IMG/VR virus record: IMGVR_UViG_3300031974_005302
Location: 1 to 49,427 of that record
Origin: a virus
Direction: 5' to 3' (one strand)
Length of the DNA stretch: 49,427 bases
Within the stretch, counting starts at the first letter, position 1, and the number at the start of each line of letters is the position of its first letter. Shown here piece after piece: positions 1,330 to 16,892 of this stretch. Both the position numbers and the translations under genes were made by a program. Under the pieces are notes generated by a model, which saw nothing but the letters and a program-made list of their open reading frames with translations, was not told the DNA's origin and made no database searches.

Positions 1330-2580
1330 ATGTCAGATAAAATAAAGATCTTTACGATCAGCGACCACCCGCTGTCTCCGAGTGGTGTTGGAACTCAAAC
1401 AAAATACATTATTGAAGGAATGCTTAAGACTGGTAAGTACCAGTTTGTTTCTTTTGGAGGTGCTGTTAAGCACCCAAACCACGACCCGCAGAGAACTGAA
1501 GAGTGGGGTAGTGATTGGGTAATTTGGCCTGTTGATGGTTATGGCAATCAAGATATGGTCCGAGCAATGATCCGTCAGCAAAAGCCGGATATTCTTTGGT
1601 TCATGACAGACCCGAGATTTTATGGTTGGCTTTGGTCAATTGAAAATGAAATTCGAGCGCATGTTCCAATGGTTTATTACCATGTTTGGGACAATTATCC
1701 ATATCCAAGTTTCAATCGTAAGTTTTACCTATCAAACGATCACGTTGCTTGTATTTCAAAGCTAACACATGACATTGTACAGACAGTGGCGCCAGAGGTA
1801 GATTCTTCCTACATTCCGCATGCGGTAAATCCAGATATCTTTAAGCCCCACACCGCTCAAGAGATAAAGAATTGGAGAATGTCTAAGAACTTAGATGATA
1901 AGTTTGTTTGTTTCTGGAACAGTCGTAACGCAAGACGTAAGCAATCAGGCACATTAATTTGGTGGTTCAAGGAATTCCTAGACAAGGTTGGTCATGACAA
2001 CGCATGCCTTATCATGCATACAGACGTAAAGGATCAACATGGACAGGATTTGGAAGCAATAATTCATGAATTAGGTCTTACTAATGGAGAAGTTCTTTTT
2101 TCAAGAGAGAAGGTCAATGCAGCAGATTTAGCTGGAATGTACAATATGTCTGATCTTACAATTTGTATCTCTGATGCTGAAGGGTTTGGTCTTTCTACCC
2201 TAGAGTCTCTATCTTGCGGCACGCCAATTCTGGTAAACATGACCGGAGGTCTTCAAGATCAAGTAACGAACGGAGAAAAGTTCTTTGGTATCGGACTACA
2301 GCCGGCTTCAAAAGCAATTATCGGATCACAGCAGGTTCCATACATTTACGAAGATCGTCTAAATAAGGATGATTTTATTAATGCTTTGGTTGAACTTTAC
2401 GAGATGACACCAGAAGCCAGAAGAGAACTGGGTATGGCTGGTCGTGCTTGGTCCGAAGATCGATTTGGATTTGATAAGTTTATCCAAACATGGGATGACT
2501 TATTCACATCAATTCACGAAGAAAAAGGTTCTTGGGAAGATCGCAAGGGCTACAACTCATACGAAGTAAAGGTTTACTAA
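1330..2580 (+). CDS. Glycosyltransferase, GT4 family
   Basis: 416 residues, typical for GT-B fold retaining glycosyltransferases. The N-terminal domain begins with a beta strand and the Gly loop 'SGVGTQT', where family members bind acceptor. The C-terminal donor-binding domain holds the E-x7-E motif at E284 and E292 (EGFGLSTLE) followed by SCGTPIL. The protein would transfer a sugar from a nucleotide-sugar to a growing glycan in the cytoplasm; donor and acceptor cannot be read. It is the first gene of the glycan block, eight bases after the nuclease gene, with AGGA about nine bases ahead of the ATG. The TAATG overlap with the next gene implies translational coupling. Confidence 0.88.
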   Translation: MSDKIKIFTISDHPLSPSGVGTQTKYIIEGMLKTGKYQFVSFGGAVKHPNHDPQRTEEWGSDWVIWPVDGYGNQDMVRAMIRQQKPDILWFMTDPRFYGWLWSIENEIRAHVPMVYYHVWDNYPYPSFNRKFYLSNDHVACISKLTHDIVQTVAPEVDSSYIPHAVNPDIFKPHTAQEIKNWRMSKNLDDKFVCFWNSRNARRKQSGTLIWWFKEFLDKVGHDNACLIMHTDVKDQHGQDLEAIIHELGLTNGEVLFSREKVNAADLAGMYNMSDLTICISDAEGFGLSTLESLSCGTPILVNMTGGLQDQVTNGEKFFGIGLQPASKAIIGSQQVPYIYEDRLNKDDFINALVELYEMTPEARRELGMAGRAWSEDRFGFDKFIQTWDDLFTSIHEEKGSWEDRKGYNSYEVKVY

Positions 2581-3845
2581 TGTTAAAGAAGGTTTTAATT
2601 AAGGGCCCGGTCCTATCGCGTTCAGGATATGGAGAACAAGCTCGTTTTGCTTTGAGAGCACTGCAATCGAGACAAGATTTATTTGATATTTATATTGTGA
2701 ATATCCCTTGGGGACGAACAGGACAAATTTCCTCTGTAGATGAGGAAGCGGATTTTATTCATCAAACGATTCTTAAAACTCAAATTTATGTACAACAAAG
2801 AGGCCAGTTTGATATCTCACTACAAGTCACAGTTCCTAACGAGTTTGAGAAAATCGCACCTGTAAACATCGGCTACACAGCTGGCATTGAAACAACAAAG
2901 GTATCTCCACAATGGATTGCCAAATCTAATGAAACCGTTGATAGGATCATTGTCGTTTCTGATCATTCAAAGAAGGTATTTGAACAAACAAAATATAATG
3001 TCAAAGATCAGGCCGGGAACGAGCACAAGGGCTGGGGACTTCAAATACCAGTAGATACAGTTAACTATCCTGTTAGAATGTCTGAGCCAGAAAATGTTAG
3101 CATTGAGTTTAGAACTAGTAAGAACTTTCTCGTCGTATCTCAATGGGGTCCAAGAAAAAACTTAGATAATACCATTAAGTGGTTTGTGGAAACATTTGCC
3201 GACGACGAGGATGTAGGTCTGGTAGTGAAGACAAATACTGCGTCAGACTCTGTGTTAGATAGAGAACTCACACAGAAGCGCCTAGAAGCTCTTCTAAACG
3301 CTTGTGGTCCTCGCAAGTGCTCTGTGTACCTAATTCACGGTGAGATGTCTCCTGGGAACCTAGCGTGGCTCTACGAGCACCCTACTATGAAGGCAATGAT
3401 TAACATTGGTCACGGCGAAGGGTACGGACTTCCTTTGTTTGAGGCTGCTTACCACGGATTACCTCTAATCACAACAACTTGGTCTGGACAGATGGATTTT
3501 ATTTGCAAGCCAAATAAGAAAGGCAAGCAAATTCCAAGAGTTATTAAGGTTGATTACGATTTGCTTAATGTTCAAAAAACTGCTGTTTGGGACGGGGTTG
3601 TACAGGCAGATTCTAAATGGGCTTTCCCAAAAGAAAATTCTTTTAAGAGAGGATTAAAAGATCTCCTAGAAAAGGAGCAGTATTGGAAGAGTGAAGCACA
3701 ATCGTTAAAGAATTATGTGCATGATAATTTTACAAAAGATAAATTATATGAGCAATTTTGTAATTCTGTTTTTGAAGGAGAAGTCCTAACAATGCCGGAA
3801 GAGTCAATAGATGATCTTTTTGCAAAGTTAGAAAATAACAGATGA
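2580..3845 (+). CDS. Glycosyltransferase, GT4 family
   Basis: 421 residues from the ATG at 2580, which overlaps the preceding stop (TAATG). A longer frame from 2532 exists, but its extra residues lie inside the upstream gene; the shorter start gives a normal GT-B N-terminus, MLKKVLIKGPV with the loop SRSGYGEQ. The donor-binding E-x7-E is clear at E280 and E288 (EGYGLPLFE), followed by YHGLPLITT. It probably adds one sugar in the same pathway as its upstream neighbour; the two are tandem but clearly diverged. The last four bases overlap the next gene (ATGA). Specificity is unknown. Confidence 0.87.
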   Translation: MLKKVLIKGPVLSRSGYGEQARFALRALQSRQDLFDIYIVNIPWGRTGQISSVDEEADFIHQTILKTQIYVQQRGQFDISLQVTVPNEFEKIAPVNIGYTAGIETTKVSPQWIAKSNETVDRIIVVSDHSKKVFEQTKYNVKDQAGNEHKGWGLQIPVDTVNYPVRMSEPENVSIEFRTSKNFLVVSQWGPRKNLDNTIKWFVETFADDEDVGLVVKTNTASDSVLDRELTQKRLEALLNACGPRKCSVYLIHGEMSPGNLAWLYEHPTMKAMINIGHGEGYGLPLFEAAYHGLPLITTTWSGQMDFICKPNKKGKQIPRVIKVDYDLLNVQKTAVWDGVVQADSKWAFPKENSFKRGLKDLLEKEQYWKSEAQSLKNYVHDNFTKDKLYEQFCNSVFEGEVLTMPEESIDDLFAKLENNR

Positions 3846-5482
3846 TAGTATTTGTCTCTGATCTTTTTAAACAAGATTATCCCGGTGGCGCCGAGCTGAC
3901 AACAGATGCAATATTACAAGACTGTCCATTACCAACTGTCTTGGTTAGGTCTCAGCAACTTAACTCCTCTGTAATATCTAAATACAAGGACTGGTATTGG
4001 ATTTTTGGGAATTTTGCCAACATAAGTCCAGCAAATTTGATTATTATATCAGATAACGTAGATTACTCGGTGATAGAGTACGACTATAAATACTGTAAAT
4101 ACAGATCTTCCGAAAAACATGAAAATATCGAAGGTGCATGCGATTGTAGGCTAAGTCAGCGCGGTAAAGCGGTATCAATATTTTTATCGCGCGCGTCCAA
4201 TGTATGGTTTATGTCTGAGGGGCAACGACAATTTTACTGCAATTTTTATTCATTTCTGGATAAGGATGAAACAAAAGTTTTAAGCTCTGTATTCGATAAA
4301 AAATCACTTGAATATTTTAATTCTGTTGATACAACACAAAAAGAGGACATTTGGCTTATTCAAAAATCTCCTTCTTGGATTAAAGGAACAGAAGATGCGA
4401 TTTCCTATGCTATTGATAATAACCTTAATTATGAAGTGTTTGAGGGTCTAAGTTATCAAGAGATGTTGGATAAATTTTCAAGGTCCAAAGGGTTTATAAC
4501 ATTTCCAAGAGGAAAAGACACTTGCCCTCGAACGGCTATTGAGGCGAAATTATTAGGATGTGAAATCATAAGCAATGAGTTTGTTCAACATCGCGACGAA
4601 GAATGGTTTATAGGTGATAAAAATAGGGCGATCAGTTATTTGAAGGATAGAACCAAAATCTTTTGGAGAGAGACGCTTAATAATTCAAACTTAAATTTAC
4701 CTTTTATAAAAGATAGTTCTTATAAAAATAAAATAAAATTTAAAATAATTGTGCCTGTTTATAACTCTGAAAGTTGGATTGGAAGGTGTATCTCTAGCAT
4801 ACTAAAGCAAGATTATGATAATTTTGAATGCATAGTGACAGACGATATATCAACGGACGATACATATTTTGCTGCCATAAAAGCAGTCAATGGAGATAAA
4901 AGGTTTAATATCATTAAAAATAAAGAAAAGAAGTATGCACTTAAAAATATACATGACGCCATAAATATTGCTAATCCAGAAACGCAAGATGTGGTGGTGA
5001 TATTAGATGGAGATGACTGGCTATCGACAGATTACGTTCTATCTAATCTAGCTCGGTATTATACAGAGGAAAAATGTTGGATGACATATGGTAGCTTTGT
5101 AGAGTACCCAACTGGTCGTGTAGGGGCTGAATCAAGCAATTATCCTTCTCATATTGTAGATAATAATCTATATCGTCAAGATACTTGGCGCGCTTCACAC
5201 CTTAAGACATTTAAGTATTTTTTGTGGAATAAAATTAAAACTAAAGATCTTATGGATGAAGACGGTAAATTTTATGAAATGACCTATGATCAAGCGATGA
5301 TGTTGCCAATGCTAGAGATGTCCGGACCACGAGCCAAATATGTTAGTGAAATAAATTATGTATATAATGTTTCAAACCCCAACGCTGTTAATAAAACAAG
5401 AGCCAGTAAACAACATAGTTTAATGCTTAAGATAAGATCAAAATCATCATACGAGAGATTAACAGATGAAAATTTTGCTTGA
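3842..5482 (+). CDS. Two-domain glycosyltransferase: GT4-like N-terminus fused to GT2
   Basis: 546 residues, nearly twice a normal GT2. Residues 1 to about 290 look like a GT-B-type domain: an N-terminal FVSDLF strand with PGGAE loop and, near residue 235, a stretch (CPRTAIEAKLLGC) like the GT4 donor-binding end. From residue 300 a GT2 (GT-A) domain starts with FKIIVPVYNSE and has DGDDWL at 389-394, the DXD-type metal and nucleotide-sugar site. The fusion could add two sugars in sequence. The gene is notably AT-rich, like those after it. Start and stop both overlap neighbours (4 and 17 bases). GT2 is secure; the N-terminal half is less so and may be degenerate. Confidence 0.78.
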   Translation: MIVFVSDLFKQDYPGGAELTTDAILQDCPLPTVLVRSQQLNSSVISKYKDWYWIFGNFANISPANLIIISDNVDYSVIEYDYKYCKYRSSEKHENIEGACDCRLSQRGKAVSIFLSRASNVWFMSEGQRQFYCNFYSFLDKDETKVLSSVFDKKSLEYFNSVDTTQKEDIWLIQKSPSWIKGTEDAISYAIDNNLNYEVFEGLSYQEMLDKFSRSKGFITFPRGKDTCPRTAIEAKLLGCEIISNEFVQHRDEEWFIGDKNRAISYLKDRTKIFWRETLNNSNLNLPFIKDSSYKNKIKFKIIVPVYNSESWIGRCISSILKQDYDNFECIVTDDISTDDTYFAAIKAVNGDKRFNIIKNKEKKYALKNIHDAINIANPETQDVVVILDGDDWLSTDYVLSNLARYYTEEKCWMTYGSFVEYPTGRVGAESSNYPSHIVDNNLYRQDTWRASHLKTFKYFLWNKIKTKDLMDEDGKFYEMTYDQAMMLPMLEMSGPRAKYVSEINYVYNVSNPNAVNKTRASKQHSLMLKIRSKSSYERLTDENFA

Positions 5483-6359
5483 AAATATCAATCTTAAAAG
5501 TTCAAACGGTCCAAACTCTTTTGCACGAAAATTAACCCCCTATATTATTGGTGCGGGCCATGAATTAGCCGACGTGAAAAACGCAGATGTGTCTTTGTGT
5601 TTCATTGAATCTCCATACAAAGATCTACAAGTGCCTAGGGCCCAAAGATTAGATGGAATATATTATAATACGAGATTTGATTATAAGTCGCAAAATAAGA
5701 ATATACAAAGAACATATAACGAGTCACAAGGCATCATATATCAATCGTACTATGGAAAAGAATTGATTACTAAATTCTTTGGCGATCACCAAAATGGAAC
5801 TGTCATTCATAATGGTGCCGATGTACAAACAATTAATAGTATTGAACCGATGAGGAATGATGTTAAGGACCGTAGAATATGGAGTTGTGCGGCTTCTTGG
5901 CGCCCGCATAAACGACTAAATGAAAATATCAGATATTTTCTAGAACATAAATCTGAGAAGGATATTCTTATCGTAGCAGGGAATGTGATAGCTGCTGAAA
6001 AGCTAGATGACCCGAGCATATTCTACATGGGTAATTTAACACAAAATCAATTATATGCTGTATACAAGGCTTCTGAGTTCTTTCTTCATTTAGGCTATTT
6101 GGATTGTTGTCCAAATGTTGTCGTCGACGCTCGCGCCTGCGGCGCGCAAGTAATCTGCACAACATCTGGTGGCACAAAAGAAGTTGCGGGCCCCAATGCA
6201 ATTCTAATTCCTGAAGAAGAATGGAATTTTAAGCCTATTGATCTCTACAGTCCTCCAAAATTATCTTTCGATACAAAACTTCAAAATTCTTGGGATGTAG
6301 ACTACAATATGGAAGTTATTTCGACTCAATACATAAATTTTTTGGAATCACTAATATGA
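5466..6359 (+). CDS. Glycosyltransferase, GT4-like, short
   Basis: 297 residues, shorter than the usual 350-400. A GT-B layout is visible: N-terminal KILLENINLKSSNGPNSFA loop, an IHNGAD linker after the first Rossmann domain, then a C-terminal donor domain with SCAASWRPHKR and YLDCCPNVVVDARACGA. In this last motif the usual E-x7-E is D-x7-D, a conservative change also seen in some GT4 subgroups. The short length comes mostly from the first domain. It overlaps the previous gene by 17 bases and the next by 4 (ATGA). Likely a glycan-chain transferase; substrate unknown. Confidence 0.75.
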   Translation: MKILLENINLKSSNGPNSFARKLTPYIIGAGHELADVKNADVSLCFIESPYKDLQVPRAQRLDGIYYNTRFDYKSQNKNIQRTYNESQGIIYQSYYGKELITKFFGDHQNGTVIHNGADVQTINSIEPMRNDVKDRRIWSCAASWRPHKRLNENIRYFLEHKSEKDILIVAGNVIAAEKLDDPSIFYMGNLTQNQLYAVYKASEFFLHLGYLDCCPNVVVDARACGAQVICTTSGGTKEVAGPNAILIPEEEWNFKPIDLYSPPKLSFDTKLQNSWDVDYNMEVISTQYINFLESLI

Positions 6360-7651
6360 AAATTAATTATTTTGATCTCGGTCTTTATCGTGGAGTAGAG
6401 CTAGAATGGATTGTGAATCAAATTTTACCTGCTTTGGGGGTGGAAGACTATAAGGCGTATGGCTTTGAAGCTTCTTCGGTATATGCCGAAGGGGTAGCTA
6501 AAAGATATGCTTCTAACCCCAAAGTCAAGATAGAACATGTAGCTATAGCTGATAAAGAATCAATAATGAGACTATATCATTCTCCAAACTTACTTGGTCA
6601 TTCAATTTATTCAACTAAAAATAATGTGATGCTGGATAAATACGAAGATGTTATTAGTACGAGGTTTTCTGAGTGGATCAAGAAAAATAATATTGATTTA
6701 GAAAACAGCTTCAATATCATGAAAGTAAATATTGAGGGTGCCGAGTGGCCTCTGTTTCAAGATATGGTAGCCAATGACTTGATTAAACACATAGATATAT
6801 TCTGTGGAGCCGATGGCGATCACGAAGGTCGTCATGACATAGAAAAAGTTGCTGAGCTTAAACCGATCGCAGAAAAGTATTATTCACTCCTAAAAGAGAA
6901 CAACATTGAAATTCATAGGTTCACAGAGTGGAAACCACAACTAAATAAAGATATTGGACGTTTAATATTCGAGAGATACTCATCTAAAGCATTTAAAGAA
7001 GTGTCTAAAATACCGGAGATAACATCAATACAGGTTCCGAAAAATTATTATAAAATATGGGAAGAAGTATCAAAACCTACTCAACTTAAAAAAGCAAAAA
7101 ATCACAAACTAAGCCAGAGTGAAACAGAATCTGCATTGTCACAATTGGTTGTAAGACCAACTTACTTGTGTAATATAGCCTCAATTTATGGAGCTAAGAA
7201 CATTGCTGAAGTAGGTACCGCGCAAGGGCTTCAAAGTTATACTTTTGCCGAATATCTTAGGAGCAACAATATTGATGGTAAAGTTTGGACCTGTGACATT
7301 GTTAATGCAAGGAATGCCGAATATGAATTAAAATACTCTGATCTTATGGTTTTCTGTGAGGGCAATAGTCAAAAAATGACAGAAACTATTTCCTCAACAA
7401 ATCAAAAAATAGACTTGTTTTACATCGATGGAGCACACGACAAGGGAGACGTTATTAGAGACGTTTTCTATCTTAGGCAAGTTCAATCTGAAAATCCAGT
7501 TTGGATATTTGATGATTATGATGATCGTTTTGGTTGTTATAAAGATATAACTGCAATTATGAAAATTGCAAAGAAATTTAAAGTCTATTCCGTTGGGAAG
7601 ACTGCCAGCGGAAATCCAAATCACCAAGTTGTAGTGTATGGAAAATTATGA
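6356..7651 (+). CDS. Double SAM-dependent methyltransferase (FkbM-like plus Methyltransf_24-like)
   Basis: 431 residues from the ATG at 6356, overlapping the previous stop (ATGA); a longer frame from 6290 lies inside the upstream gene. Residues 1 to about 215 resemble FkbM methyltransferases: FDLGLYRG, YGFEAS, a VKVNIEGAEW segment typical of that family, and IDIFCGADGDHE. Residues about 260-431 form a second class I methyltransferase: IAEVGTAQGLQS (SAM loop), WTCDI, IDLFYIDGAHDKGDV and WIFDDYDD, as in the Methyltransf_24 group. Two methylations of one or two sugars are plausible. This is a tandem fusion of unlike methyltransferase types inside a glycan operon. Substrates are unknown. Confidence 0.78.
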   Translation: MKINYFDLGLYRGVELEWIVNQILPALGVEDYKAYGFEASSVYAEGVAKRYASNPKVKIEHVAIADKESIMRLYHSPNLLGHSIYSTKNNVMLDKYEDVISTRFSEWIKKNNIDLENSFNIMKVNIEGAEWPLFQDMVANDLIKHIDIFCGADGDHEGRHDIEKVAELKPIAEKYYSLLKENNIEIHRFTEWKPQLNKDIGRLIFERYSSKAFKEVSKIPEITSIQVPKNYYKIWEEVSKPTQLKKAKNHKLSQSETESALSQLVVRPTYLCNIASIYGAKNIAEVGTAQGLQSYTFAEYLRSNNIDGKVWTCDIVNARNAEYELKYSDLMVFCEGNSQKMTETISSTNQKIDLFYIDGAHDKGDVIRDVFYLRQVQSENPVWIFDDYDDRFGCYKDITAIMKIAKKFKVYSVGKTASGNPNHQVVVYGKL

Positions 7652-7676: not shown

Positions 7677-8921
7677 ATGTTAAAAAGTTTAAATTTTAAT
7701 TCGTTTGAGTTCAATAGCAGGCAAGAAGCCCTGATAGGGGTCGATACATCTAAAAAATATGTGCTTAAAGTTCAGCTGGTGTTTAACCCACGTAAAAAAA
7801 ACACTATTAAAGAAGAATACGAAGTGATGAGACATCTTAATAAATCAGAATGTGTATCTTGTCCAAAAGCTTATGAATACGGAAAAATTACAAAGACTAA
7901 TTTGCTAGACCTTGTAACTGAGAAAGATCATAGAGAGGCCCTGATAGATGATGAGTATGAGTACATACTGCAGGAATATATCTCTGATAGTGGTCTAATA
8001 AATTTACCAGATATTGTTTTATCAATATTAGAACAAAAAAAACTTGGAGTTTATCAAGCCGATATTAAGCCTGGAAATCTCCGCTTTGATGTCAATACAA
8101 GTGTTTGTTACATTATTGATTATGATCAAGCGATATTACTGACTGATGAGCAAAAGTCCTTTCCAAATAAAACATTCTTTAATTTTTGCTCTCAATATGA
8201 TAAACAAGAACATGGTATTGGAAATTGGCTAAGACATCTGCCGCAATACAGTGAATTGGATTTAGACCAGCTTTTTAGAGATGGTAGTTTTAATCTTGGG
8301 CAGACAACAATTTTAAAGACACAAAGAACCACTAATAGCACAACTGGTATTTATCACACAATAGAAAGCGATGACATCTTTGCCGATGGCTCAAGAAAGG
8401 TAAATGTTCGTGCCGGTATACTGGACACATTACAATTTAAAGAAGGCGAAAAGGTATTAGATATAGGATGTAATACAGGATTGCTATGTCAGTATCTTGC
8501 AGCCAGGGGTTGCGAAGTATCTGGCGTTGATAACGATACTAGAGTAGTTATAGTTGCTAAAATTATTTCTAATATATTAGGAAATAATATAGACTACTAC
8601 CATTTAGATTTGGACGATGCTGAGGCCATAAAAGAGTGTGACACAATCATGCTGTTTTCGGTGTTACATCATACTCATAAAGTTAAGGAAAATGCCAAGA
8701 AGATCGCCCAAGCATGCAATAGGATTATTATAGAAGCTAGACTTTTTGAGAATGGAGCACAGCCTTATGGGGATGAGTGGGTACGCACCTCGTCTTGGAA
8801 CTTTAATGACTGGGAGGAGTTTTATACCTTCTGCGAGACGATCTTCCCTGGCTTTAAGTTAAAAAATAATCTAGGATTAGGGTCTAAAAATCGCAACATC
8901 CTTGAGTTGGTAAAAGAATGA
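7677..8921 (+). CDS. Kinase-methyltransferase fusion, possible glycan-capping enzyme
   Basis: 414 residues. The N-terminal part (1 to about 170) has a protein-kinase-like core: K31 in YVLKVQ, a Glu helix near 46-48, the catalytic loop D129-I-K131-P-G-N134 (QADIKPGN) and metal-binding D148 in IIDYDQ. Residues about 235-410 are a class I SAM methyltransferase: VLDIGCNTGLL from about residue 259, then VSGVDND and LFSVLHHTHK. Kinase-methyltransferase fusions in glycan loci recall E. coli WbdD, which phosphorylates and methylates the O-antigen end to stop chain growth, but WbdD has the methyltransferase first. Chain capping here is inference. AAAGG precedes the start. The ATGA overlap couples it to the next gene. 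Confidence 0.8.
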   Translation: MLKSLNFNSFEFNSRQEALIGVDTSKKYVLKVQLVFNPRKKNTIKEEYEVMRHLNKSECVSCPKAYEYGKITKTNLLDLVTEKDHREALIDDEYEYILQEYISDSGLINLPDIVLSILEQKKLGVYQADIKPGNLRFDVNTSVCYIIDYDQAILLTDEQKSFPNKTFFNFCSQYDKQEHGIGNWLRHLPQYSELDLDQLFRDGSFNLGQTTILKTQRTTNSTTGIYHTIESDDIFADGSRKVNVRAGILDTLQFKEGEKVLDIGCNTGLLCQYLAARGCEVSGVDNDTRVVIVAKIISNILGNNIDYYHLDLDDAEAIKECDTIMLFSVLHHTHKVKENAKKIAQACNRIIIEARLFENGAQPYGDEWVRTSSWNFNDWEEFYTFCETIFPGFKLKNNLGLGSKNRNILELVKE

Positions 8922-9544: not shown

Positions 9545-10681
9545 ATGCTTATTAAAGATATCACCAATGGTTTTCCCACCACCAAAAGGGCGGCTATGTT
9601 TTACAAAACAGAGCCTTTTTATGTAGATGTCGCTCGGTATACCCACACTAATAACTGGGAAATTTTAGAAGCTATCAAGATACTCAATCAAAAGGGATTT
9701 GCGGTCGACTTGATAGATAGGAACAACGGTGGTTGGAAGGGCGGTTATGATTACGATTTGTTTTTAGGTCTCGGCGTTGGGGGCTCTGGCCAGGCTTTCC
9801 CCAAACACGCGAAGACATCACGGGCCCCAGTGAGAATTTTGTTGTCTATGGGCCCCCAGCCTGATGAATCAGCTCGGCTTGTACTTGAGCGATATAAGTT
9901 ATTCAACGATCGAACTGGGCGCAATGTCCCAACAATGCGGGCGCCCACCAATGTTTGCGGTGACGTTTGGCTAGAAATTATGAAATCTACAGATTATATC
10001 TTTAATATTGGGGAAGAAAATAATCAAAGCTCCAAAAGCTTTTTGCCATACGGAAAGCCTATTATTAATTTTTATCCTTCTAGTTCCCCTAAAGTACAAT
10101 TTCATGAGCCTTGGCTCAACACACGTCAACCTGATACATTTCTTTGTTTTGCGGGGAATGGATTTATTTGTAAAGGAGTAGATCTAGTAGTGGAGGCGTT
10201 TCTGCGCGATCCGCAGAAAAAACTTCACATTTGCGGGCCTAATAGTGAACGAGGTTTTTTTGATCATTATGGGCCTCTTATCCATAATGCTCCCAATATA
10301 GAATATCATGGCTTTATAGAGCCCGGTGGACCAGTGTTTAATGATCTAGCATCGCGCTGCTCCTATGTGGTTTTCCATTCAGCTGCTGAGGGGTGTTGCA
10401 CCTCGGTAGCAACCGCCATGCGCGCCGGCCTTGTCCCGATAGTTAACGATTGGACTGGCATTAATATTACCAACGAGGGGATTAACCTTAGTGAGGAGGG
10501 TGACTTAATTCAAAACATCACCGCCGCGCTGACCAGAGCAGTCACGGTTTCCCAAAATCAGTATCGAGTAATGGTGCGCAATACATTAGAAAAAGCAGCT
10601 AAATTTTCTCAAGAATCTTTTACTGAAAGTTATACCGAAGCTATTTCAAAAGTTATAGCCAATGAGAAGTCGTTACAATAA
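9545..10681 (+). CDS. Glycosyltransferase, GT4-like, variant motif
   Basis: 378 residues, normal length for GT-B enzymes. The C-terminal domain is recognisable: FAGNGFICKGVDLVVEAF, LHICGP, then FHSAAEGCCTSVATAMRAGLVPIV. In the usual E-x7-E position the first Glu is present (AEG) but the second is replaced by Thr (SVAT), so this is a variant subgroup or has altered catalysis. The N-terminal domain contains the Gly-rich segment LGLGVGGSGQ. G+C looks higher than in surrounding glycan genes. It lies three bases after the methyltransferase gene and ends 23 bases before a small unrelated gene that has its own strong ribosome binding site. Confidence 0.72.
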   Translation: MLIKDITNGFPTTKRAAMFYKTEPFYVDVARYTHTNNWEILEAIKILNQKGFAVDLIDRNNGGWKGGYDYDLFLGLGVGGSGQAFPKHAKTSRAPVRILLSMGPQPDESARLVLERYKLFNDRTGRNVPTMRAPTNVCGDVWLEIMKSTDYIFNIGEENNQSSKSFLPYGKPIINFYPSSSPKVQFHEPWLNTRQPDTFLCFAGNGFICKGVDLVVEAFLRDPQKKLHICGPNSERGFFDHYGPLIHNAPNIEYHGFIEPGGPVFNDLASRCSYVVFHSAAEGCCTSVATAMRAGLVPIVNDWTGINITNEGINLSEEGDLIQNITAALTRAVTVSQNQYRVMVRNTLEKAAKFSQESFTESYTEAISKVIANEKSLQ

Positions 10682-10691: not shown

Positions 10692-10697
10692 AAGGAG
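10692..10697 (+). promoter_or_regulatory. Strong Shine-Dalgarno (AAGGAG) of the 104-residue gene
   Basis: AAGGAG lies seven bases ahead of the ATG at 10705. Most glycan genes around it depend on stop-start overlap and lack so good a site, so this small gene is probably translated independently and strongly. Confidence 0.6.
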
Positions 10698-10704
10698 AAT
10701 AAAA

Positions 10705-11019
10705 ATGGGCGATATTACTAATACAACACCAGACGCGTCTGGAAATGTGGTTCGAACAATTTGCGAAGTACACAGAGAAGTGTATCGGGAACTTTACAAC
10801 TGTTTCCACAATAACGGTGGTGTGATGACAGAGGACAGTTTTGAATTTCTTAAAACTCACATGGAAGAAGCCTTTGAGTATGCTAAAAAAATGAATAATA
10901 AATTAAGACAGTACAAGTACAATTATGATGTGGGATGGTGGGAAACACATCGCCTAGATGGGGGAGAAATTGATGAACTAGTAAAAATTCAGAGTGTCAT
11001 TAAGAAAGATAAAAGTTAA
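10705..11019 (+). CDS. Small protein of unknown function inside the glycan block
   Basis: 104 residues, not recognised. It is mostly helical by appearance, charged, with no membrane segment or signal peptide; a conserved-looking aromatic stretch YNYDVGWWETHRLDGGEID lies near residues 74-92. It is unlike any glycosyltransferase or sugar enzyme. It has its own AAGGAG site while its stop overlaps the next start (TAATG), so it is both well expressed and coupled to the glycosyltransferase that follows. It could be a regulator, a partner of a glycan enzyme, or a phage early-type protein captured in the block. Real coding is supported by spacing and signal, function is not. Confidence 0.65.
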   Translation: MGDITNTTPDASGNVVRTICEVHREVYRELYNCFHNNGGVMTEDSFEFLKTHMEEAFEYAKKMNNKLRQYKYNYDVGWWETHRLDGGEIDELVKIQSVIKKDKS

Positions 11020-11996
11020 TGAAAATTGTTTTTAATAGTGGTCATCGACATGCGGCCGCAACTGTTTTTTATCAAGATGCATTTGCTGATATGCCTGGAA
11101 TAAGCTTGCATGACGATGATTTTGCTAGTGCTGATGTAGCGCTCTTTATGACATATGATCATAAATGGATTAAGGGTACCAAACAAAAGTTTCCACATCT
11201 CAAAATAGGTCTAATAGACCCTCGAACACCGGCAATAATGCAAGACATATCCTATTGCGATTTCTTAGTGGTTGATAGTATAGAGATGGAAGATTACTGG
11301 AGAGTAGCAAAAAAACCAATAGCTCGTTATGTAGAATATCCAAAACTAAACTTAAATGAGCAAACAAAAAATCTTATAAGTTCTATTCAGTCAACGAGAG
11401 ATAAAAATACCATATATATCGGATATCATGGTAATTCTTATCACATTATGGAAGGAGATAAGACTCTTCTTCCCGCTATTGAAGAGCTTGGTAAAAAATA
11501 TAACATAGAGTTATTACTTATGCACAACTCGCCGGCCCACCCCGAGCGCTATAATAGAGCAATGCCAAATGGAATAAAAATTCATCGCGCGCCTTGGAGT
11601 ATGGAAAATTATATTAAATTTTTGTCCTTATCGCAGATTGGATTAGTGCCCAATAACCTTGGAGCAACGCCTAAAGAACCTGGAACCACGGGGGATCCTA
11701 ACACAGATTATTGCTTAAGTTTTAAGATGACCTCCAATCCTGGCAGGTTTGCAGTTTTTGGATTACTAGGAATTCCTGTTGTAGCAGACTTTTATCCCTC
11801 GTCTCTACAATACTTGCAAAATGGCTGTGGTTTTGTAGCACATTCAAAAGATGGGTGGTATCATTCACTAGAGACTTTGATACAGTCAAAAAAAAAGCGA
11901 GAGGAAATGGGAAATAATCTACAGAAGCTAGTAAATAGAGAGTTTGATTTTACTGTACAAAATAAAAATTTTCTGCTATTCTTGGAACAGATATAG
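11019..11996 (+). CDS. Probable glycosyltransferase, GT-B fold
   Basis: 325 residues. It begins with a short strand MKIVFNSGHRHAA and shows a GT-B-like two-domain plan: IYIGYHGNSYHI opening the second domain, IELLLMHNS, IKIHRAPWSMENYIKFLSLSQIGLVPNN, then GRFAVFGLLGIPVVADFYPS near the C-terminus, where GT4 enzymes bind the donor. The canonical E-x7-E is absent; the segment has a Phe/Gly pattern of distant family members. The ATG overlaps the stop of the 104-residue gene. It probably belongs to the same glycan pathway. Family placement is moderate, donor unknown. Confidence 0.62.
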   Translation: MKIVFNSGHRHAAATVFYQDAFADMPGISLHDDDFASADVALFMTYDHKWIKGTKQKFPHLKIGLIDPRTPAIMQDISYCDFLVVDSIEMEDYWRVAKKPIARYVEYPKLNLNEQTKNLISSIQSTRDKNTIYIGYHGNSYHIMEGDKTLLPAIEELGKKYNIELLLMHNSPAHPERYNRAMPNGIKIHRAPWSMENYIKFLSLSQIGLVPNNLGATPKEPGTTGDPNTDYCLSFKMTSNPGRFAVFGLLGIPVVADFYPSSLQYLQNGCGFVAHSKDGWYHSLETLIQSKKKREEMGNNLQKLVNREFDFTVQNKNFLLFLEQI

Positions 11997-12017
11997 TGTT
12001 GTAAATAAGGATCTTTC

Positions 12018-12854
12018 ATGAAAAATAAAAAAGTTTTGGTCACTGGTGCTACTGGATTTTTAGGTAAATCTTTGGTAAGCAATTTATTAAATTGTGGAGC
12101 AGATGTTATTGGGACCGGATACTCTGAGTCGAATATAAAGAAGTTTGAAAGAACATTTGGCAACAAAGTAAAAATTTACTCTGTCGATATAGCTTCTAAT
12201 TACGTTGCCTTAAAAAACATCCTTTTACAGGAAAAGGTTGACTATGTTATCCACGCGGCAGCATTAAAACACGTAGGTATATGTCAAGATAATCCTACTA
12301 GAGCTATAGACGTTAATATAAATGGATCCAAAAATGTTGCTCAAGCTTGTGTGGAAGCAAACGTCACAAATGCTATAGCGGTTAGTACCGACAAAGCTAT
12401 CAATCCCGTATGCACATACGGTATAACTAAAAAGTTGATGGAAGCAATATTCTACGAATATAACTTTGGTATTTTCCAGGGAGTAAATTTCTTGTTTTCA
12501 TCTGAAAGTGTGTTGGATGTTTGGGACCAGATAAGACAGAATAATAAACCCATTCTTGTAAATACGGAGGCAGTTAGGTATTTTTGCACGGTGCAGCAAG
12601 TTTGTGATGCAATATTGAAAAATATAAACACCAAGAGGCAAGTATTTTCGGTTGATCATAGTTATAAAATATCGATTGTGGATCTGCAGGAAGCGTATTC
12701 TACTTGTCACAATTACTGGAATGTTGATAAGTATACTCCTTTAGATATAGAGAAAGTGGAAGAAGAGCTTCCATTTGATCACATTGGTGTTACCACGCCT
12801 AGTCGTGATCAAATCATACAAATGTTTCACGATCACTACAACACAGAAGTATGA
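12018..12854 (+). CDS. NAD(P)-dependent sugar dehydratase/epimerase, FlaA1/CapD (Polysacc_synt_2) type
   Basis: 278 residues. Rossmann loop VTGATGFLGKSL lies at residues 8-19, followed by HAAALKHVGICQDNP, VSTDKAINP and the catalytic-type YGITK (Y-x3-K). The AAALKHV and STDKA.NP signatures mark the FlaA1/PseB/CapD group, which make 4-keto-6-deoxy UDP-HexNAc. The usual length is 320-350; the region after YxxxK is shortened, with RYFCTV still matching the family's RFF(M)T segment. No aminotransferase of the DegT/PseC type, which normally acts next, is seen. The gene follows a 21-base gap with a TGTAAATA octamer at 12000-12007, and overlaps the next gene (ATGA). Confidence 0.82.
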   Translation: MKNKKVLVTGATGFLGKSLVSNLLNCGADVIGTGYSESNIKKFERTFGNKVKIYSVDIASNYVALKNILLQEKVDYVIHAAALKHVGICQDNPTRAIDVNINGSKNVAQACVEANVTNAIAVSTDKAINPVCTYGITKKLMEAIFYEYNFGIFQGVNFLFSSESVLDVWDQIRQNNKPILVNTEAVRYFCTVQQVCDAILKNINTKRQVFSVDHSYKISIVDLQEAYSTCHNYWNVDKYTPLDIEKVEEELPFDHIGVTTPSRDQIIQMFHDHYNTEV

Positions 12855-13480
12855 AAGTTTTAGCAATTGCAGGTCATGCTGATGACGTGGAACTGGGACT
12901 TGGTGGTACCCTAGCACGTCACTCTGATAATGGCGATGATGTTACGGTTGTTTTAGTGACCCATAGCGGTTATTCTAATTATGACGGTCGTATTATCCGT
13001 ACTAGCGAGGTGGCTAGCGCCGAGGCCGTCGAGGCCGCTGATATACTTGGCATTGATAAGCTTATAATATGGGATTACGAAACAAAAGAAGTAGAGTATA
13101 ATGTGAAACTTATAGAAGATTTAAATCGCTTAGTCGATCAGATACAACCAGATGTAGTTTACACACATTGGGTAGAAGACGCAAATCAAGATCATTCTGC
13201 CATATCAAAAGCAACTTTAATAGCAGCTAGAAACATTCCTCGTATTTTAATGTATCAGAGTAATTGGCATAGCTCGGAGAGCACCTTTAGGGGAAGATTC
13301 TACGTCGACATCACAGATTATATTCAAAAAAAGACTAGAGCAATCCAAGCCCATAAATCAGAGGTAGGTAAGCGCGGCAGTTCTTGGGTTGAATTTTTTA
13401 CAAATAAAAACAGAAATGACGGAATTGCAATTGGTGTTGGATATGCGGAATGCTTTGAGATTATTAAATGGCTAAGGTAG
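12851..13480 (+). CDS. PIG-L/LmbE-family deacetylase
   Basis: 209 residues. The family signature appears at the N-terminus: AIAGHADDVELGLGGTLARH, equivalent to the zinc-binding AHPDDxxxGxGG motif, with Ala replacing Pro. The second zinc site region is THWVEDANQDHSAISKA (matching HxxDxHxDH). These enzymes remove N-acetyl groups from GlcNAc-type sugars or related small molecules. In this block it probably deacetylates an amino sugar, next to a UDP-HexNAc-type dehydratase and a WbqC-like protein. Start and neighbours: ATGA overlap upstream, seven bases to the next gene. Family assignment is firm; substrate is inferred from context. Confidence 0.88.
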   Translation: MKVLAIAGHADDVELGLGGTLARHSDNGDDVTVVLVTHSGYSNYDGRIIRTSEVASAEAVEAADILGIDKLIIWDYETKEVEYNVKLIEDLNRLVDQIQPDVVYTHWVEDANQDHSAISKATLIAARNIPRILMYQSNWHSSESTFRGRFYVDITDYIQKKTRAIQAHKSEVGKRGSSWVEFFTNKNRNDGIAIGVGYAECFEIIKWLR

Positions 13481-13487
13481 ACTAAAT

Positions 13488-14084
13488 ATGAGGGTTACGA
13501 TACATCAACCGGAACATTTTCCTTATATGGGATTTTTTCAAAAGATGAAAGCAGCCGATCTTTTTATTGTTTTAGACAACGTAAAGTATAGAAAGAATTA
13601 TTTTCAAAACAGAAATAAGTTTCCCAACGCACAGGGGCGAGATGAGTGGTTCACGATCCCGGTGAATAAGCGATCAAACAACTCTTTGATAAAAGACGTG
13701 CACACAGTGCCAGACAATGGCTGGCGTAAAAAACTTCTAAAACAAATGAAATTTAATTTTGGCTATGACCTAGAAAGAGTTTATGAACCAGACAAACTTA
13801 TTGACATCAACATGTTAAGTATTAAATTTTGTCGTGAAAAATTAGGAATTAGAGTGCCAATGGAGTTTGCCTCAAATTTAGTTAACGACTTGAGCAGCTC
13901 AGAGTTGTTAGTAAATCTTTGTAAAAGCGTTAATGCTTCTACATACATCTCGGGTCCTTCTGGGAGAGATTATTTGAATGTAAGTTTATTTGAAGAGGAA
14001 AACATTGGGGTTGAATTTTTTGATCCACATGTGAAGAACTATTATTCTGCTTTATATAATATAACCAAGGAGATAGAGTTATGA
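13488..14084 (+). CDS. WbqC-like family protein
   Basis: 198 residues. The opening MRVTIHQPEHFPYMGFF followed by DLFIVLDNVKYRKNYFQNRN and the WFTIPV segment are the hallmarks of the WbqC family (PF08889), found in O-antigen and other surface glycan loci, often near sugar aminotransferase and deacetylase genes. Biochemical function of the family is poorly settled; acylation or amino-acid attachment to a sugar has been suggested from context. Here it sits directly after the PIG-L deacetylase, which would expose a free amino group, so a joint deacetylate-then-acylate step is a reasonable inference. The stop overlaps the epimerase start (ATGA). Confidence 0.87.
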   Translation: MRVTIHQPEHFPYMGFFQKMKAADLFIVLDNVKYRKNYFQNRNKFPNAQGRDEWFTIPVNKRSNNSLIKDVHTVPDNGWRKKLLKQMKFNFGYDLERVYEPDKLIDINMLSIKFCREKLGIRVPMEFASNLVNDLSSSELLVNLCKSVNASTYISGPSGRDYLNVSLFEEENIGVEFFDPHVKNYYSALYNITKEIEL

Positions 14085-14977
14085 AGTGTTTAGTAACCGG
14101 TGGAGCCGGTTTTGTTGGTAGTAATTTAGTTGATGAGTTGATTAGAAGAGGTCATGAAGTTGTTATTATTGATAATCTTTCAACCGGTAAGCGAGAAAAT
14201 ATTAATCCGGATGCTAAATTCTACGAGGTAGATATAGAAAGTTCCGATGCTGCTGTTGCCTTTCCGGGTGTTGAAGCAGTATTTCATACTGCGGCCAAAG
14301 CTAGGGTACAGCCATCAATTGAGGACCCCCTCAGTTACAACAAAACCAACGTAGAAGGTACTTTGAACATGCTTAAAATGGCTGTGGACCATGGAGTGAG
14401 AAGGTTTATTTATAGTGCTTCGTCTTCTGCTTATGGCAATACGGATAAGTTGCCCCAACAGGAAACGGATCCTACCAGCCCTCTTAGTCCGTATGGTGTG
14501 CAGAAATTAGTAGGCGAATTATATTGCACCATGTTTGCTCATGTATACGATATCGAAACAGTTAGTTTACGTTACTTTAACATTTACGGTGAAAGACAAT
14601 CTCTAGAGGGCGCCTATTGTTTGGTCATGGGTATATTTGCTAGACAGAGGTTACAGGGCGTGCCTTTAACAATCAACGGTGATGGCAAACAGTCGCGCGA
14701 TTTCACATATGTTGGCGATGTAGTAAAAGCAAACATACTGGCTGCTACATCTCCAAATGTTGGTAATGGAGAGGTCATAAATATTGGTAATGGAAATAAT
14801 AGATCAGTGAACCAAATAGCCGATATGATAGGGGGGGAGAGAATTCACGGCCCAGCCGTAGTAGAACCTAACTCCACTTTGGCTGATAATTCTAAGGCAA
14901 GGGAGCTTTTAGGATGGAAGCCAACGATGATTATAGAAGACTGGGTAAAGGAGTATAAGAAAGAATTAGGGATATAA
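14081..14977 (+). CDS. NAD-dependent epimerase, UDP-hexose 4-epimerase (GalE/WbpP)-like
   Basis: 298 residues, extended short-chain dehydrogenase type. It has GGAGFVGSNL for NAD binding, VIIDNLSTGKREN, HTAAKARVQPSIEDP, the S-S-S segment YSASSSAYG, SPYGVQK with catalytic Tyr and Lys, and RYFNIYGERQ. These match GalE-like and WbpP-like epimerases, which convert UDP-Glc/UDP-Gal or their N-acetyl forms. The length is slightly below the 310-340 norm. The reaction is likely 4-epimerisation; dehydratase activity is less likely because no T-[DE]-E active-site triad is seen. The gene is coupled to WbqC-like upstream and leads within two bases to GDP-fucose synthase. Confidence 0.83.
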   Translation: MKCLVTGGAGFVGSNLVDELIRRGHEVVIIDNLSTGKRENINPDAKFYEVDIESSDAAVAFPGVEAVFHTAAKARVQPSIEDPLSYNKTNVEGTLNMLKMAVDHGVRRFIYSASSSAYGNTDKLPQQETDPTSPLSPYGVQKLVGELYCTMFAHVYDIETVSLRYFNIYGERQSLEGAYCLVMGIFARQRLQGVPLTINGDGKQSRDFTYVGDVVKANILAATSPNVGNGEVINIGNGNNRSVNQIADMIGGERIHGPAVVEPNSTLADNSKARELLGWKPTMIIEDWVKEYKKELGI

Positions 14978-14979
14978 TT

Positions 14980-15915
14980 TTGTACTTGTACGTTGTAACA
15001 GGGGGGTCAGGGATGGTAGGCTCTGCCTTCAAAAATATTATACCACAAGCTGAGTATCCTGACCGGCGTCGATTGTGGAACGAGATGTCTAGAGCGGCGT
15101 CCAATAATGCTGAGTTCTTTACTGGTAAAAATGTTATTCATTTAGCAGCAAAAGTTGGAGGAGTAAAAGCAAATACAGACGAGATAGTCGACTTTTATAT
15201 GATCAATTCTACTCTAAATCAGACTCTTTTAAATACTTGTTCTTTAGCCAAGGCTAATAAGGTTGTTTCTTTACTATCAACGTGTATATACCCCGATGCA
15301 CCTTATGTTTCTTATCCCTTGACGGAGGATCAGCTACACCTTGGCCCCCCTCACGAGTCTAACTTTGGTTACGCATATGCAAAAAGAATGGTCGACGTAA
15401 TGTCTCGGGCCTACCGACAACAGTATGGGTGCAACTTTATTACAGCCATTCCTAATAATCTTTATGGTGAAAACGACAATTTTGATCTAGAGAATAGCCA
15501 TGTTATTCCGGCAATCATAAGAAAAGTTTGGGAAGCAAAGATAAACAAGGAGCCTTCTATTGTCTGTTGGGGCGATGGCTCACCTCTTCGTGAATTTACA
15601 TACTCAAAGGATATTGCTCGTATTCTTATATTTTTGATGGAAAATTATGATGGACCAGAGCCAATAAACATCGGTTGCACAGAAGAATATTCTATTAAAG
15701 AAATCGTAGAAATAATTTGTAATATTTTTGAGTATACGGGGAAAATTGTATGGGACACCAATATGCCTTCGGGACAACACCGTAAACCATCCTCTAACCA
15801 AAAGCTGCTAAATTTAGGGTGGGAAAAGAAATGGTACACGCCTCTTGAAGAGGGCTTAAAAACCACTTGTGAATGGTTTAAAGTAAATTATCCAAACGTT
15901 AGGGGTGTTTCTTGA
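14980..15915 (+). CDS. fcl: GDP-L-fucose synthase (GDP-4-keto-6-deoxymannose epimerase/reductase)
   Basis: 311 residues, close to the family norm of about 320. It has GGSGMVGSAF at the NADP site, HLAAKVGGVKAN (a strong family marker), STCIYPD containing the catalytic Cys region, FGYAYAKR with Y-x3-K, and IPNNLYGENDNFD. It converts GDP-4-keto-6-deoxy-D-mannose to GDP-L-fucose with NADPH. The best start is TTG at 14980, two bases after the previous stop; a second TTG lies at 14986. The next gene encodes the enzyme for the preceding step, so the pair makes GDP-fucose from GDP-mannose. Confidence 0.92.
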   Translation: MYLYVVTGGSGMVGSAFKNIIPQAEYPDRRRLWNEMSRAASNNAEFFTGKNVIHLAAKVGGVKANTDEIVDFYMINSTLNQTLLNTCSLAKANKVVSLLSTCIYPDAPYVSYPLTEDQLHLGPPHESNFGYAYAKRMVDVMSRAYRQQYGCNFITAIPNNLYGENDNFDLENSHVIPAIIRKVWEAKINKEPSIVCWGDGSPLREFTYSKDIARILIFLMENYDGPEPINIGCTEEYSIKEIVEIICNIFEYTGKIVWDTNMPSGQHRKPSSNQKLLNLGWEKKWYTPLEEGLKTTCEWFKVNYPNVRGVS

Positions 15916-16892
15916 AAACAGCGATAATAACAGGTGTTACAGGGCAAGATGGGTCCTACCTAGCAGAACTGCTTTTGTCTAAAGGCTATAAAGTAGTGGG
16001 GCTAAAGAGAAGAACATCTTTAATAAATACCGATAGGGTAGATACAATTTACAACAATCCTAATTTTATTCTTGAATATTGGGACCTGAATGATGTCGGT
16101 TCTATGTATAGACTTATTCTTCAATATAAGCCAAATGAGATTTATAATCTTGCTGCTCAATCACATGTTAGGGTATCGTTCGATATACCCGAACACACTG
16201 TCGACGGAGTGGCACTAGGATCCTTAAGAATTTTAGAGGCAATAAGAAATATTGATAATAATATAAGATTCTATCAAGCCTCATCCTCGGAGATGTTTGG
16301 AGACGCCCAATGTCCTAAAACCGGTTATACTGAAAAAAGTCGAATGACGCCGGCTTCGCCATATGCTTGTGCAAAACTTTTTTCTCATAATTTAGTTAGA
16401 AATTACAGAAAATCTTATAATCTACATGCATCAAGTGGAATTTTGTTTAATCACGAATCTCCTCGCCGTGGTGAAACATTTGTAACTAGGAAGATAACAA
16501 TGGCAGCAGCTCGCATCAAATTAGGTCTACAGGAAGAACTACATTTAGGTAATTTACAAGCTAAAAGAGATTGGGGTTATGCTGGTGATTATGTGGAAGC
16601 GATGTGGGCAATGTTACAACAAAACAAAGCCGATGATTACGTTATTTCCACTGGTGAGACGCATACGGTTCAAGAGTTTCTGGAAGAGGTTTTTGACCAT
16701 GCAAAATTGTCTATTAACAAGCATGTCAAAATTAAAGAAAAATATTTTAGGCCCCACGAAGTGCCTTTGTTGTTGGGTAATAGTGAAAAAGCTAAGAAAT
16801 TATTAAAATGGGAACCTAAAGTTAAATTTAAAGATTTAGCAAAATTAATGTATGATGAAGATCTCAAATATGTTAAATCTATTGTCAAATAA
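15912..16892 (+). CDS. gmd: GDP-mannose 4,6-dehydratase
   Basis: 326 residues; E. coli Gmd has about 370, so it is a compact version. The signature features are clear: GVTGQDGSYLAELLL at the NADP site, VGLKRRTS, NLAAQSHVRVSFD, YQASSSEMFG with the catalytic S-S-E, SPYACAK with Y-x3-K, LFNHESPRRGE, and RDWGYAGDYVEAMW. It turns GDP-D-mannose into GDP-4-keto-6-deoxy-D-mannose. Start is TTG at 15912 overlapping the fcl stop by four bases (TTGA). No ManB or ManC is seen in the window, so GDP-mannose would come from the host or from elsewhere in the phage genome. It is the last glycan gene. Confidence 0.95.
   Translation: MKTAIITGVTGQDGSYLAELLLSKGYKVVGLKRRTSLINTDRVDTIYNNPNFILEYWDLNDVGSMYRLILQYKPNEIYNLAAQSHVRVSFDIPEHTVDGVALGSLRILEAIRNIDNNIRFYQASSSEMFGDAQCPKTGYTEKSRMTPASPYACAKLFSHNLVRNYRKSYNLHASSGILFNHESPRRGETFVTRKITMAAARIKLGLQEELHLGNLQAKRDWGYAGDYVEAMWAMLQQNKADDYVISTGETHTVQEFLEEVFDHAKLSINKHVKIKEKYFRPHEVPLLLGNSEKAKKLLKWEPKVKFKDLAKLMYDEDLKYVKSIVK

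Follow-up and report, generated by a model that had tools for sequence, protein, structure and literature searches.

A fixed pair of glycosyltransferase genes and an exchangeable glycan-gene cassette in a virus contig and its relatives

Relation to described viral glycan loci

Glycosyltransferases and nucleotide-sugar enzymes encoded by a virus are known from the chloroviruses, among them PBCV-1 and NY-2A (PMC7826918, PMC9614988, PMC4691112), and enzymes of the same kinds occur in the locus compared with them here, a block of 16 consecutive plus-strand open reading frames (ORFs; b01 to b16) that fills positions 1330–16892 of the IMG/VR virus record IMGVR_UViG_3300031974_005302. This 49,427-base record, the whole stretch of DNA that was analyzed, is referred to as the window, and its main genes lie on the plus strand; the virus is a marine phage related to T4. 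The first two genes of the block, b01 and b02, form a framework that is fixed across the relatives of this virus, and the 14 genes that follow (b03–b16) form a cassette that is replaceable as a unit. The available parts of the literature describe chloroviruses as having a common glycan core to which each virus makes its own additions, and core synthesis was inferred there from a glycosyltransferase gene that is conserved (PMC7826918). Assigning core synthesis to b01 and b02 follows the same logic, with conserved core glycosyltransferases in the members and variable outer genes, and both framework transferases match the NY-2A protein B736L best. The chloroviruses differ in that they infect eukaryotic algae and carry their N-glycans on a capsid protein that is known, whereas a virion acceptor is proposed here, and in the accessible portions of those papers a single replaceable cassette is not described.

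Among phages, cyanophage P-SSM2 is reported, in the part of the source available, to hold 24 lipopolysaccharide (LPS) genes in two clusters (PMC2984593). A 15-gene block of P-SSM2 (193.4–205.5 kb) resembles the window in its many epimerases and glycosyltransferases, its methyltransferase, and the lack of any predicted membrane-spanning protein, and its GDP-mannose 4,6-dehydratase (GMD) is 54% identical to that of the window; in contrast, no match to b01 or b02 was found in the 178–215 kb stretch examined. As far as the accessible text goes, the LPS clusters of P-SSM2 and S-SSM7 differ further in being described in only some T4-like cyanophages, near hli03 or phoH, and in 2010 it was stated as unknown whether such clusters work or are 'stuffer DNA' (PMC3037559). 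Pelagimyophages, which are marine and T4-like, carry glycosyltransferases in a hypervariable region; the available parts of the source describe this region as mixed with tail fibres and diverging gradually rather than being completely replaced (PMC7029224), whereas here a cassette is replaced between fixed flanks. In mycobacteriophages, according to the section consulted, glycans were observed on the capsid and tail tube (PMC12619734, citing Freeman et al. 2023), a location that is deduced in our case.

With respect to bacterial loci, the E. coli K-12 example carries a flippase and a polymerase, whereas none was found here. O-antigen and capsule serotype loci combine fixed flanks with wholesale allelic exchange of their glycan genes, and they carry a flippase with a polymerase or else ABC export. 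The mycobacteriophages mentioned above reportedly hold far fewer sugar genes than the window. Large phage glycan clusters are already known, and it is the framework-and-cassette organization that appears to be new; no paper title or abstract opening within our literature coverage, which excludes most subscription papers, describes it.

Framework pair and replaceable cassette

Family scans identified a PD-(D/E)XK exonuclease to the left of the block; to its right lie a T4-type late sigma factor and then baseplate and tail genes (Table 1), as the original prediction from the sequence had placed them. Relatives were collected by scanning IMG/VR with the exonuclease and with the sigma factor and keeping the best 80 of each; a contig entered the set only if caught by both flank scans, which 34 were. 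In all 34 contigs, 9,934–23,703 bases separate the exonuclease and sigma genes (16,507 in the window), the gene order opens with the exonuclease, b01 and b02, and the small gene p66 is present, while a zinc ribbon (where called) and the gene x122 (called in 33) stand just ahead of sigma in the relatives. Inside these limits nearly all genes differ from contig to contig. The middle of 12 of these blocks, up to 5.4 kb, is unread, and three pairs of different records (L046/L048, L059/L060, L066/L112) have duplicate gene lists. The sigma scan gave 46 further loci; 24 of these include 4 kb or more of DNA to the left of p66, and in every one of the 24, matches to cassette-family proteins cover 44–100% of it. 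Neither the 34 contigs with both flanks nor these 24 loci showed an empty slot. An artefactual junction of host and phage sequence, one of two findings that the original prediction had named as able to overturn it, was rejected, since the block occupies the same place between the same flanks in 34 of 34 contigs and cassette-type genes are present in the 24 further loci. The other, close relatives lacking the block with no sign of transfer, was not encountered either: in relatives the slot is occupied by different cassettes, and the signs of transfer are clear.

In the 30 non-duplicate relatives, b01 is 68–97% and b02 54–82% identical to the window. Among 44 more distant exonuclease loci (exonuclease 47–63% identical), every locus in which the DNA reaches far enough contains the genes, 43 of 43 for b01 and 41 of 41 for b02, with b01 placed approximately 1 kb further on in four of the 44. 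The cultured Flavobacterium phage immuto has homologs of the nuclease, b01 and b02 in consecutive order (27, 31 and 33% identity), interrupted by a single small ORF; after the pair, its annotation gives glycosyltransferases, aminotransferases and an epimerase. In Microcystis phage Mel-JY01, also cultured, the three homologs lie in series (26, 32–35 and 31%), with an IMP-dehydrogenase-type gene between and the b01 homolog annotated as two genes. Rhodothermus phage RM378 has a b01 homolog (29%), and the gene after it matches b02 weakly (27% identity over 91 residues, E 2.5e-5); the phage's annotation lists no glycan cassette beyond these two. The pair is therefore common to the window and RM378, weakly for b02; in the available part of the source, the Far-T4 group is defined by monophyly with RM378 on gp23, gp20 and gp17 trees (PMC4360716).

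In profile searches of the PDB, b01 matches B736L of chlorovirus NY-2A best (3oy2, E 1.7e-12, positions 6–395 of 416), and the same entry is the sole profile match of b02 at E 0.01 (E 1.2e-4). Foldseek likewise placed 3oy2 on top for both models, with E 9e-21 for b01 (next 1e-17) and 6e-15 for b02 (next 7.5e-11). Seven of the 30 relatives (L049, L058, L064, L065, L066, L067 and L068) have an extra C-terminal domain of about 250 residues on b02, assigned to GT2 in four and to no family in three; the predicted b02-GT2 fusion links the framework to the cassette.

A blastn comparison with the 11 closest relatives (pieces longer than 150 bases) revealed that DNA similarity ends inside b02 at 3.53–3.76 kb and returns at 16.88–17.22 kb, the exception being the Fcl and/or GMD end of the cassette, which is common to the window and four of the 11 contigs. 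These sharp breakpoints define the replaceable unit as b03–b16 (about 3.75–16.89 kb, 13 kb), and of the block outlined by the original prediction the 16 tightly packed ORFs stand (spacings −70 to +25 bases), but the whole is not the unit that is exchanged. Clustering of the 593 block proteins from 31 non-duplicate contigs, the window included (proteins of at least 100 residues, 30% identity, 70% coverage), gave 272 families, of which 178 occur in a single contig; for b05–b12 of the window, no family member was found in the other 30 contigs at these thresholds. Contigs with 96% sigma identity carry other cassettes (L046/L048, L047, L049 and L050), with Fcl and GMD shared between L049 and the window at 79–81% and a GMD between L047 and the window at 55%. 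The record of L047 has 12 of 14 late genes 68–96% identical (one over 85% of its length) and a different cassette; the remaining two late genes reach 51%, and 48% over 43% of the gene. The cassettes of L046–L079 were also observed to hold aminotransferase, sulfotransferase, cytidylyltransferase and radical SAM genes and, by eye, a NeuB-like gene, which suggests that some would make sulfated or nonulosonic-acid glycans.

A viral scan with b10 retrieved four loci (L220 to L223). In L223 (b01 62%, sigma 62%), the genes b03, b04, b05, b06, b08, b10, b13 and b14 (8 of 14) occur in the same order and the same slot. L221 has b03–b08 and b10–b13 collinear and then GMD and Fcl, 12 of the 14 cassette genes, with b03 split in two (42% and 28%) and b05 matching at 33% over less than half; its exonuclease-b01-b02 trio is 36–39% identical to the window, versus 42–65% for 11 of the 12 shared cassette genes. 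L220 and L222 contain partial versions, with no framework genes in view. Phages with b01 at 39–63% identity carry collinear window-type cassettes, while close kin with 96% sigma identity differ, a pattern that points to the sharing of cassette alleles across lineages. The collinearity in distant phages is also good evidence that the genes form one glycan pathway, as was originally proposed. Scans with b06 and b07 gave no viral relatives although L221 encodes both, and negatives from such scans are weak. In L221 (495–16969) the window-type cassette lies before, not after, the exonuclease-b01-b02 trio, which means that in this distant lineage the slot has changed its place.

Cassette genes are under strong purifying selection where it is measurable: Nei-Gojobori omega for the closest 70–97% pair per family was usable in 25 of 59 cassette families (the other 34 were saturated), with a median of 0.040 and a maximum of 0.111. 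Values this far below 1 speak against the view that the block is filler or passive cargo that persists by adding length to the genome or as host genes hitch-hiking along, as do the catalytic motifs seen in b03, b06 and all four SDR enzymes and the collinear cassettes of distant phages. Such a role was left open for cyanophage LPS clusters, in the text available (PMC3037559), and the block length does range from 9.9 to 23.7 kb; nevertheless, we regard this explanation as close to refuted. A recent foreign origin could not be argued from composition, which was uninformative (block GC 0.377 and GC3 0.326; late genes 0.395 and 0.337).

The host was likewise approached from the sequence records. 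No psbA was found in the 24 records searched. Contigs of metagenome-assembled genomes (MAGs) with the exonuclease and b01 (five loci) come from bins named for five different taxa. One of these pairs (L211, 9206–11033) lies in a WOR-3 MAG 'chromosome', CP070664.1, whose pieces are joined by 100-N gaps, and is probably a binning contaminant. Given the mixed bins and the N-joined WOR-3 piece, bin names are no evidence of host.

Gene content of the block

Twelve of the 16 block ORFs exceed a curated Pfam cut-off as glycan-type enzymes. We counted b02 as a thirteenth because its family profile and its model both indicate a GT-B glycosyltransferase, even though it falls below the Pfam cut-off. Family or profile evidence thus supports 13 glycan enzymes, with one weak case (b10) and two ORFs without a family (b07 and b09); the glycan block is real, but the 15 of 16 genes first claimed for it exceed this count. 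Shine-Dalgarno-like motifs precede 21 of 37 starts, versus 4.5 by chance (one start was taken as 16907 in this count; the true start is 16908).

Table 1. Features of the block and its flanks, with positions in the window and the matches on which each assignment is based.
Feature	Position	Strand	Assignment	Evidence
exo	536..1321	+	PD-(D/E)XK exonuclease, left flank	PF12705 E 2.3e-13; phrog_69 E 2.3e-18; adjoins b01/b02 in relatives
b01	1330..2580	+	framework glycosyltransferase 1, GT4, GT-B fold, EGFGLSTLE motif	PF00534 E 1e-12; model pLDDT 84
b02	2532..3845	+	framework glycosyltransferase 2, GT-B fold; 3' end holds cassette breakpoint	PF00534 E 1.7e-5, below cut-off
b03	3842..5482	+	cassette GT2 glycosyltransferase, residues 302-431, DGDD at 389	PF00535 E 6.4e-23
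b04	5466..6359	+	cassette GT4 glycosyltransferase	PF13692 E 2e-7
b05	6290..7651	+	two methyltransferase-like regions	Methyltransf_24 PF13578 E 2.4e-13; FkbM PF05050 and fkbM_fam below cut-off
b06	7677..8921	+	N-terminal kinase-like domain and C-terminal SAM methyltransferase	PF13489 E 3e-11; APH below cut-off
b07	8918..9541	+	cassette gene	no Pfam, NCBIfam or PHROG family; L221 homolog 46%
b08	9545..10681	+	cassette GT4 glycosyltransferase	PF13692 E 4.2e-7; 58% in L221
b09	10705..11019	+	small gene	no Pfam or PHROG family; gap between b08 and b10 in L221
b10	11019..11996	+	probable glycosyltransferase, weak	phrog_7162 E 2.9e-4; PDB GT-B matches E 0.04; homologs in 4 viral loci
b11	12018..12854	+	short PseB/FnlA-like UDP-sugar 4,6-dehydratase	PF02719 E 3.9e-41; PseB E 6e-30, below cut-off; YGITK
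b12	12851..13480	+	PIG-L/LmbE-type sugar deacetylase	PF02585 E 4.6e-24; diacetylchitobiose deacetylase 8bgn E 2.3e-18
b13	13488..14084	+	WbqC-like protein	PF08889 E 9.7e-44
b14	14081..14977	+	nucleotide-sugar 4-epimerase (SDR)	PF01370 E 2e-62; best PDB: 4zrm UDP-glucose 4-epimerase, WbpP
b15	14980..15915	+	Fcl-like epimerase/reductase	GDP-L-fucose synthase model 237 bits, below cut-off 500
b16	15912..16892	+	GMD	TIGR01472 442 bits, cut-off 415; SSSEMF and YACAK motifs
p66	16908..17108	+	small conserved gene, right cassette edge	34/34 relatives at 54-74%; 24/24 further sigma loci with at least 4 kb upstream
zinc ribbon	17277..17525	+	zinc-ribbon protein, right flank	PF09723
sigma	17829..18515	+	late sigma factor, T4 gp55 type, right flank	phrog_234 E 3.6e-6

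Several cassette genes offer further detail. The N-terminal region of b03 was found alone in other cassettes, and a cassette family of 14 contigs starts, by eye, like this N-terminus. The kinase-like motifs YQ[AG]D[IV]K..N and DYDQ of b06 are present in four of four aligned homologs, and b06 could be a cap-adding enzyme, perhaps of a methyl-phosphate-type cap. The chain-terminating O-antigen protein WbdD presumably pairs the same two domain types in the opposite order. A WbdD-type terminator was considered for b06 and remains a lead, as only the methyltransferase part matches WbdD (E 0.001), behind many other methyltransferases. The PDB hits of b07 are at chance level, and those of the b07 pair to influenza haemagglutinin (E 0.09 and worse) were judged chance. 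Since b09 is missing from the otherwise collinear L221 cassette, it is probably an insertion. Neither b10 nor 20099–21115 had a match in the phage collection.

The PIG-L deacetylase b12 is followed directly by the WbqC-like b13 (12851–14084), and both families have distant matches in the cassettes of L058 and L066. In three Vibrio phages the WbqC match lies under features that include a BshB1-type deacetylase, which hints at a recurrent two-gene sugar-modifying unit. The tail region (29704–38175) contains an ORF of 2,823 residues with no Pfam or PHROG match, 76% identical in the record of L047; that it could be a glycan acceptor is speculation. No capsid, portal or terminase genes were recognized in the family scans of the window.

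Candidate acceptors and biological meaning

To place the locus among glycan systems, export machinery is informative. A hydropathy count, in which two E. coli flippases as controls gave 9 spans each and a polymerase gave 6, detected no protein with at least two predicted spans in the blocks of the 34 relatives, duplicate records among them, where the 706 ORFs on the plus strand were counted (the 20 on the minus strand were not) and 21 had a single span, or among the 16 ORFs of the window. The blocks of immuto (12 ORFs), Mel-JY01 (8) and P-SSM2 (15) were all zero as well. The families PF01943, PF04932, PF02397 and PF01061 were found in none of 47 related records, with positive controls detected in 9–14 of 14 genomes; the window record, which is not among the 47, was covered by the hydropathy count and family scans. 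An initiating sugar-phosphate transferase was not seen as PF02397 in these 47 records, and the WecA type was not searched by family, yet no multi-span ORF is predicted in the blocks. WecA-type enzymes are multi-span. The Gtr cassettes of temperate phages consist of GtrA, GtrB and a multi-span Gtr; the GT2 domain of b03 has a weak GtrB-like match (phrog_841), but the locus does not fit this layout, as no multi-span protein is predicted in the blocks, GtrA not having been searched by family.

The operon-like run of nucleotide-sugar enzymes and glycosyltransferases is that of a surface-polysaccharide cluster. Nonetheless, the locus does not look like a near-complete cluster of this kind, because no multi-span protein is predicted and the four export and initiation families are absent from the 47 related records. 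The original description of 'nearly a whole surface-polysaccharide cluster' is not supported: in the searches made, neither a flippase or polymerase nor an ABC exporter or an initiating sugar-phosphate transferase came to light.

The same negatives bear on remodelling of the host surface, in which host enzymes would flip and attach the cassette glycans, lipid- or core-linked, to LPS or capsule and so block superinfection or predation. Epimerases, DegT aminotransferases, WbqC and GT2/GT4 enzymes are among the cassette families seen, and they are of O-antigen and capsule-locus kinds; the record of L048, moreover, has tail genes that differ along with the cassette. Such remodelling was proposed, in the accessible parts of the sources, for cyanophage P-SSM2 (PMC2984593) and pelagimyophages (PMC7029224). 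However, none of the proteins named above was found in the blocks or the 47 records, and the same first two glycosyltransferases occur in Flavobacterium and Microcystis phages, which need not share a lipid acceptor. We consider host-surface remodelling rather unlikely. Of the two uses originally suggested, glycosylation of a putative virion acceptor fits better than rewriting of the host surface, given that the pair spans recorded host phyla and that no multi-span protein is predicted.

A soluble glycan could also be destined for host flagellin, pilin or cytosolic proteins, apart from the virion. Three of the 149 cassette representatives scanned have PF01973 MptE-like proteins, which we take to be related to the flagellar Maf family, and an immuto gene is annotated 'pilin glycosylation protein'. 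Flagellin-glycosylation islands have similar cytosolic machinery. This explanation, on the other hand, needs a common host acceptor across different phyla and would bring little obvious gain to a lytic phage, which makes it distinctly improbable.

We favour a locus of soluble, phage-encoded enzymes that glycosylate a phage component, most likely a virion protein, giving it a core that is conserved and outer sugars that can be exchanged, and we assign this reading a probability of about 0.5. The pair is kept while the recorded host phylum changes, which argues for a phage-made acceptor. Pathway order, the identity of each sugar, the acceptor and the advantage gained are inferred as follows. The first steps would fall to the framework enzymes b01 and b02, which would assemble an inner glycan on an acceptor that is phage-made and conserved. 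Sugars would be supplied by b11–b16, with a GDP-6-deoxyhexose probably made by b16 and b15 and a deacetylated amino sugar via b11 and b12; b03, b04, b08 and b10 would extend the glycan, and b05 and b06 may methylate and perhaps phosphorylate it as a cap. The phage population would keep many alternative cassettes, much like bacterial serotypes, and swap them by recombination in b02 and near p66.

Among phage-made acceptors, a virion protein appears most likely and DNA is the main alternative: b01, b02 and the cassette would then equip the bases of phage DNA with an oligosaccharide that protects them from restriction. DNA would likewise be a conserved phage-made acceptor, and in the part of the source available, the thymidine of Yersinia phage YerA41 carries a substitution of ~1 kDa, probably an oligosaccharide (PMC9023294). 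Immuto has a gene of PF00303, the thymidylate-synthase family. The same family, which presumably also covers T4-type dCMP hydroxymethylase, was found in none of 42 IMG/VR relatives (records up to 203 kb, mostly fragments, none shown complete), nor in Mel-JY01 or RM378. A surface glycan accords better with the sulfotransferases, the MptE-like proteins and the rapid exchange of alleles. We thus hold DNA hypermodification to be improbable.

Several observations weigh against a virion acceptor or against parts of the scheme. The b01/b02 pair adjoins a nuclease, and in RM378 the annotation of its neighbours points to DNA metabolism ('similar to DNA polymerase I' and ribonucleotide reductase), which also fits DNA. 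T4 late promoters (TATAAATA) were not enriched (4 found versus 5.9 expected), which gives late expression no support. In the record of L048 (sigma 96%), late genes are 24–88% identical, so that tail and cassette both differ, and the cassette may be linked to the tail genes through host range; independence of the cassette from the tail genes holds for the record of L047 and fails for that of L048, and we make no general claim. Host enzymes may flip and polymerize the cassette products, the records of the relatives are mostly fragments, and we know of no glycan for any of these phages. VIA-align scored 3oy2 (Z 33.9) level with a sucrose-phosphate synthase (34.0); fold similarity by itself is thus of little weight, and the likeness to B736L is a lead rather than proof. 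According to the text available, B736L bound GDP-mannose best, its acceptor is unproven, and the NY-2A capsid glycan is without mannose (PMC9614988).

Gene content, the conserved framework, allelic replacement, the sharing of cassettes as units and, where measurable, purifying selection are directly supported. Selection, the fixed framework and the shared whole cassettes make a function very likely and now testable, and since the framework pair exists in a cultured phage, immuto, the virion, the host surface and DNA could be told apart as acceptors. Beyond this, a broader picture is possible but tentative, namely a serotype system in a large aquatic T4-related lineage: a fixed two-enzyme core would prime every virion, and a pool of cassettes would jump between distant phages, maintained by some marine agent (host receptors or decoys, competing phages or grazers) that recognizes virion sugars and favours rare types. 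If true, virions with exchangeable sugar coats would be the phage counterpart of bacterial serotypes.

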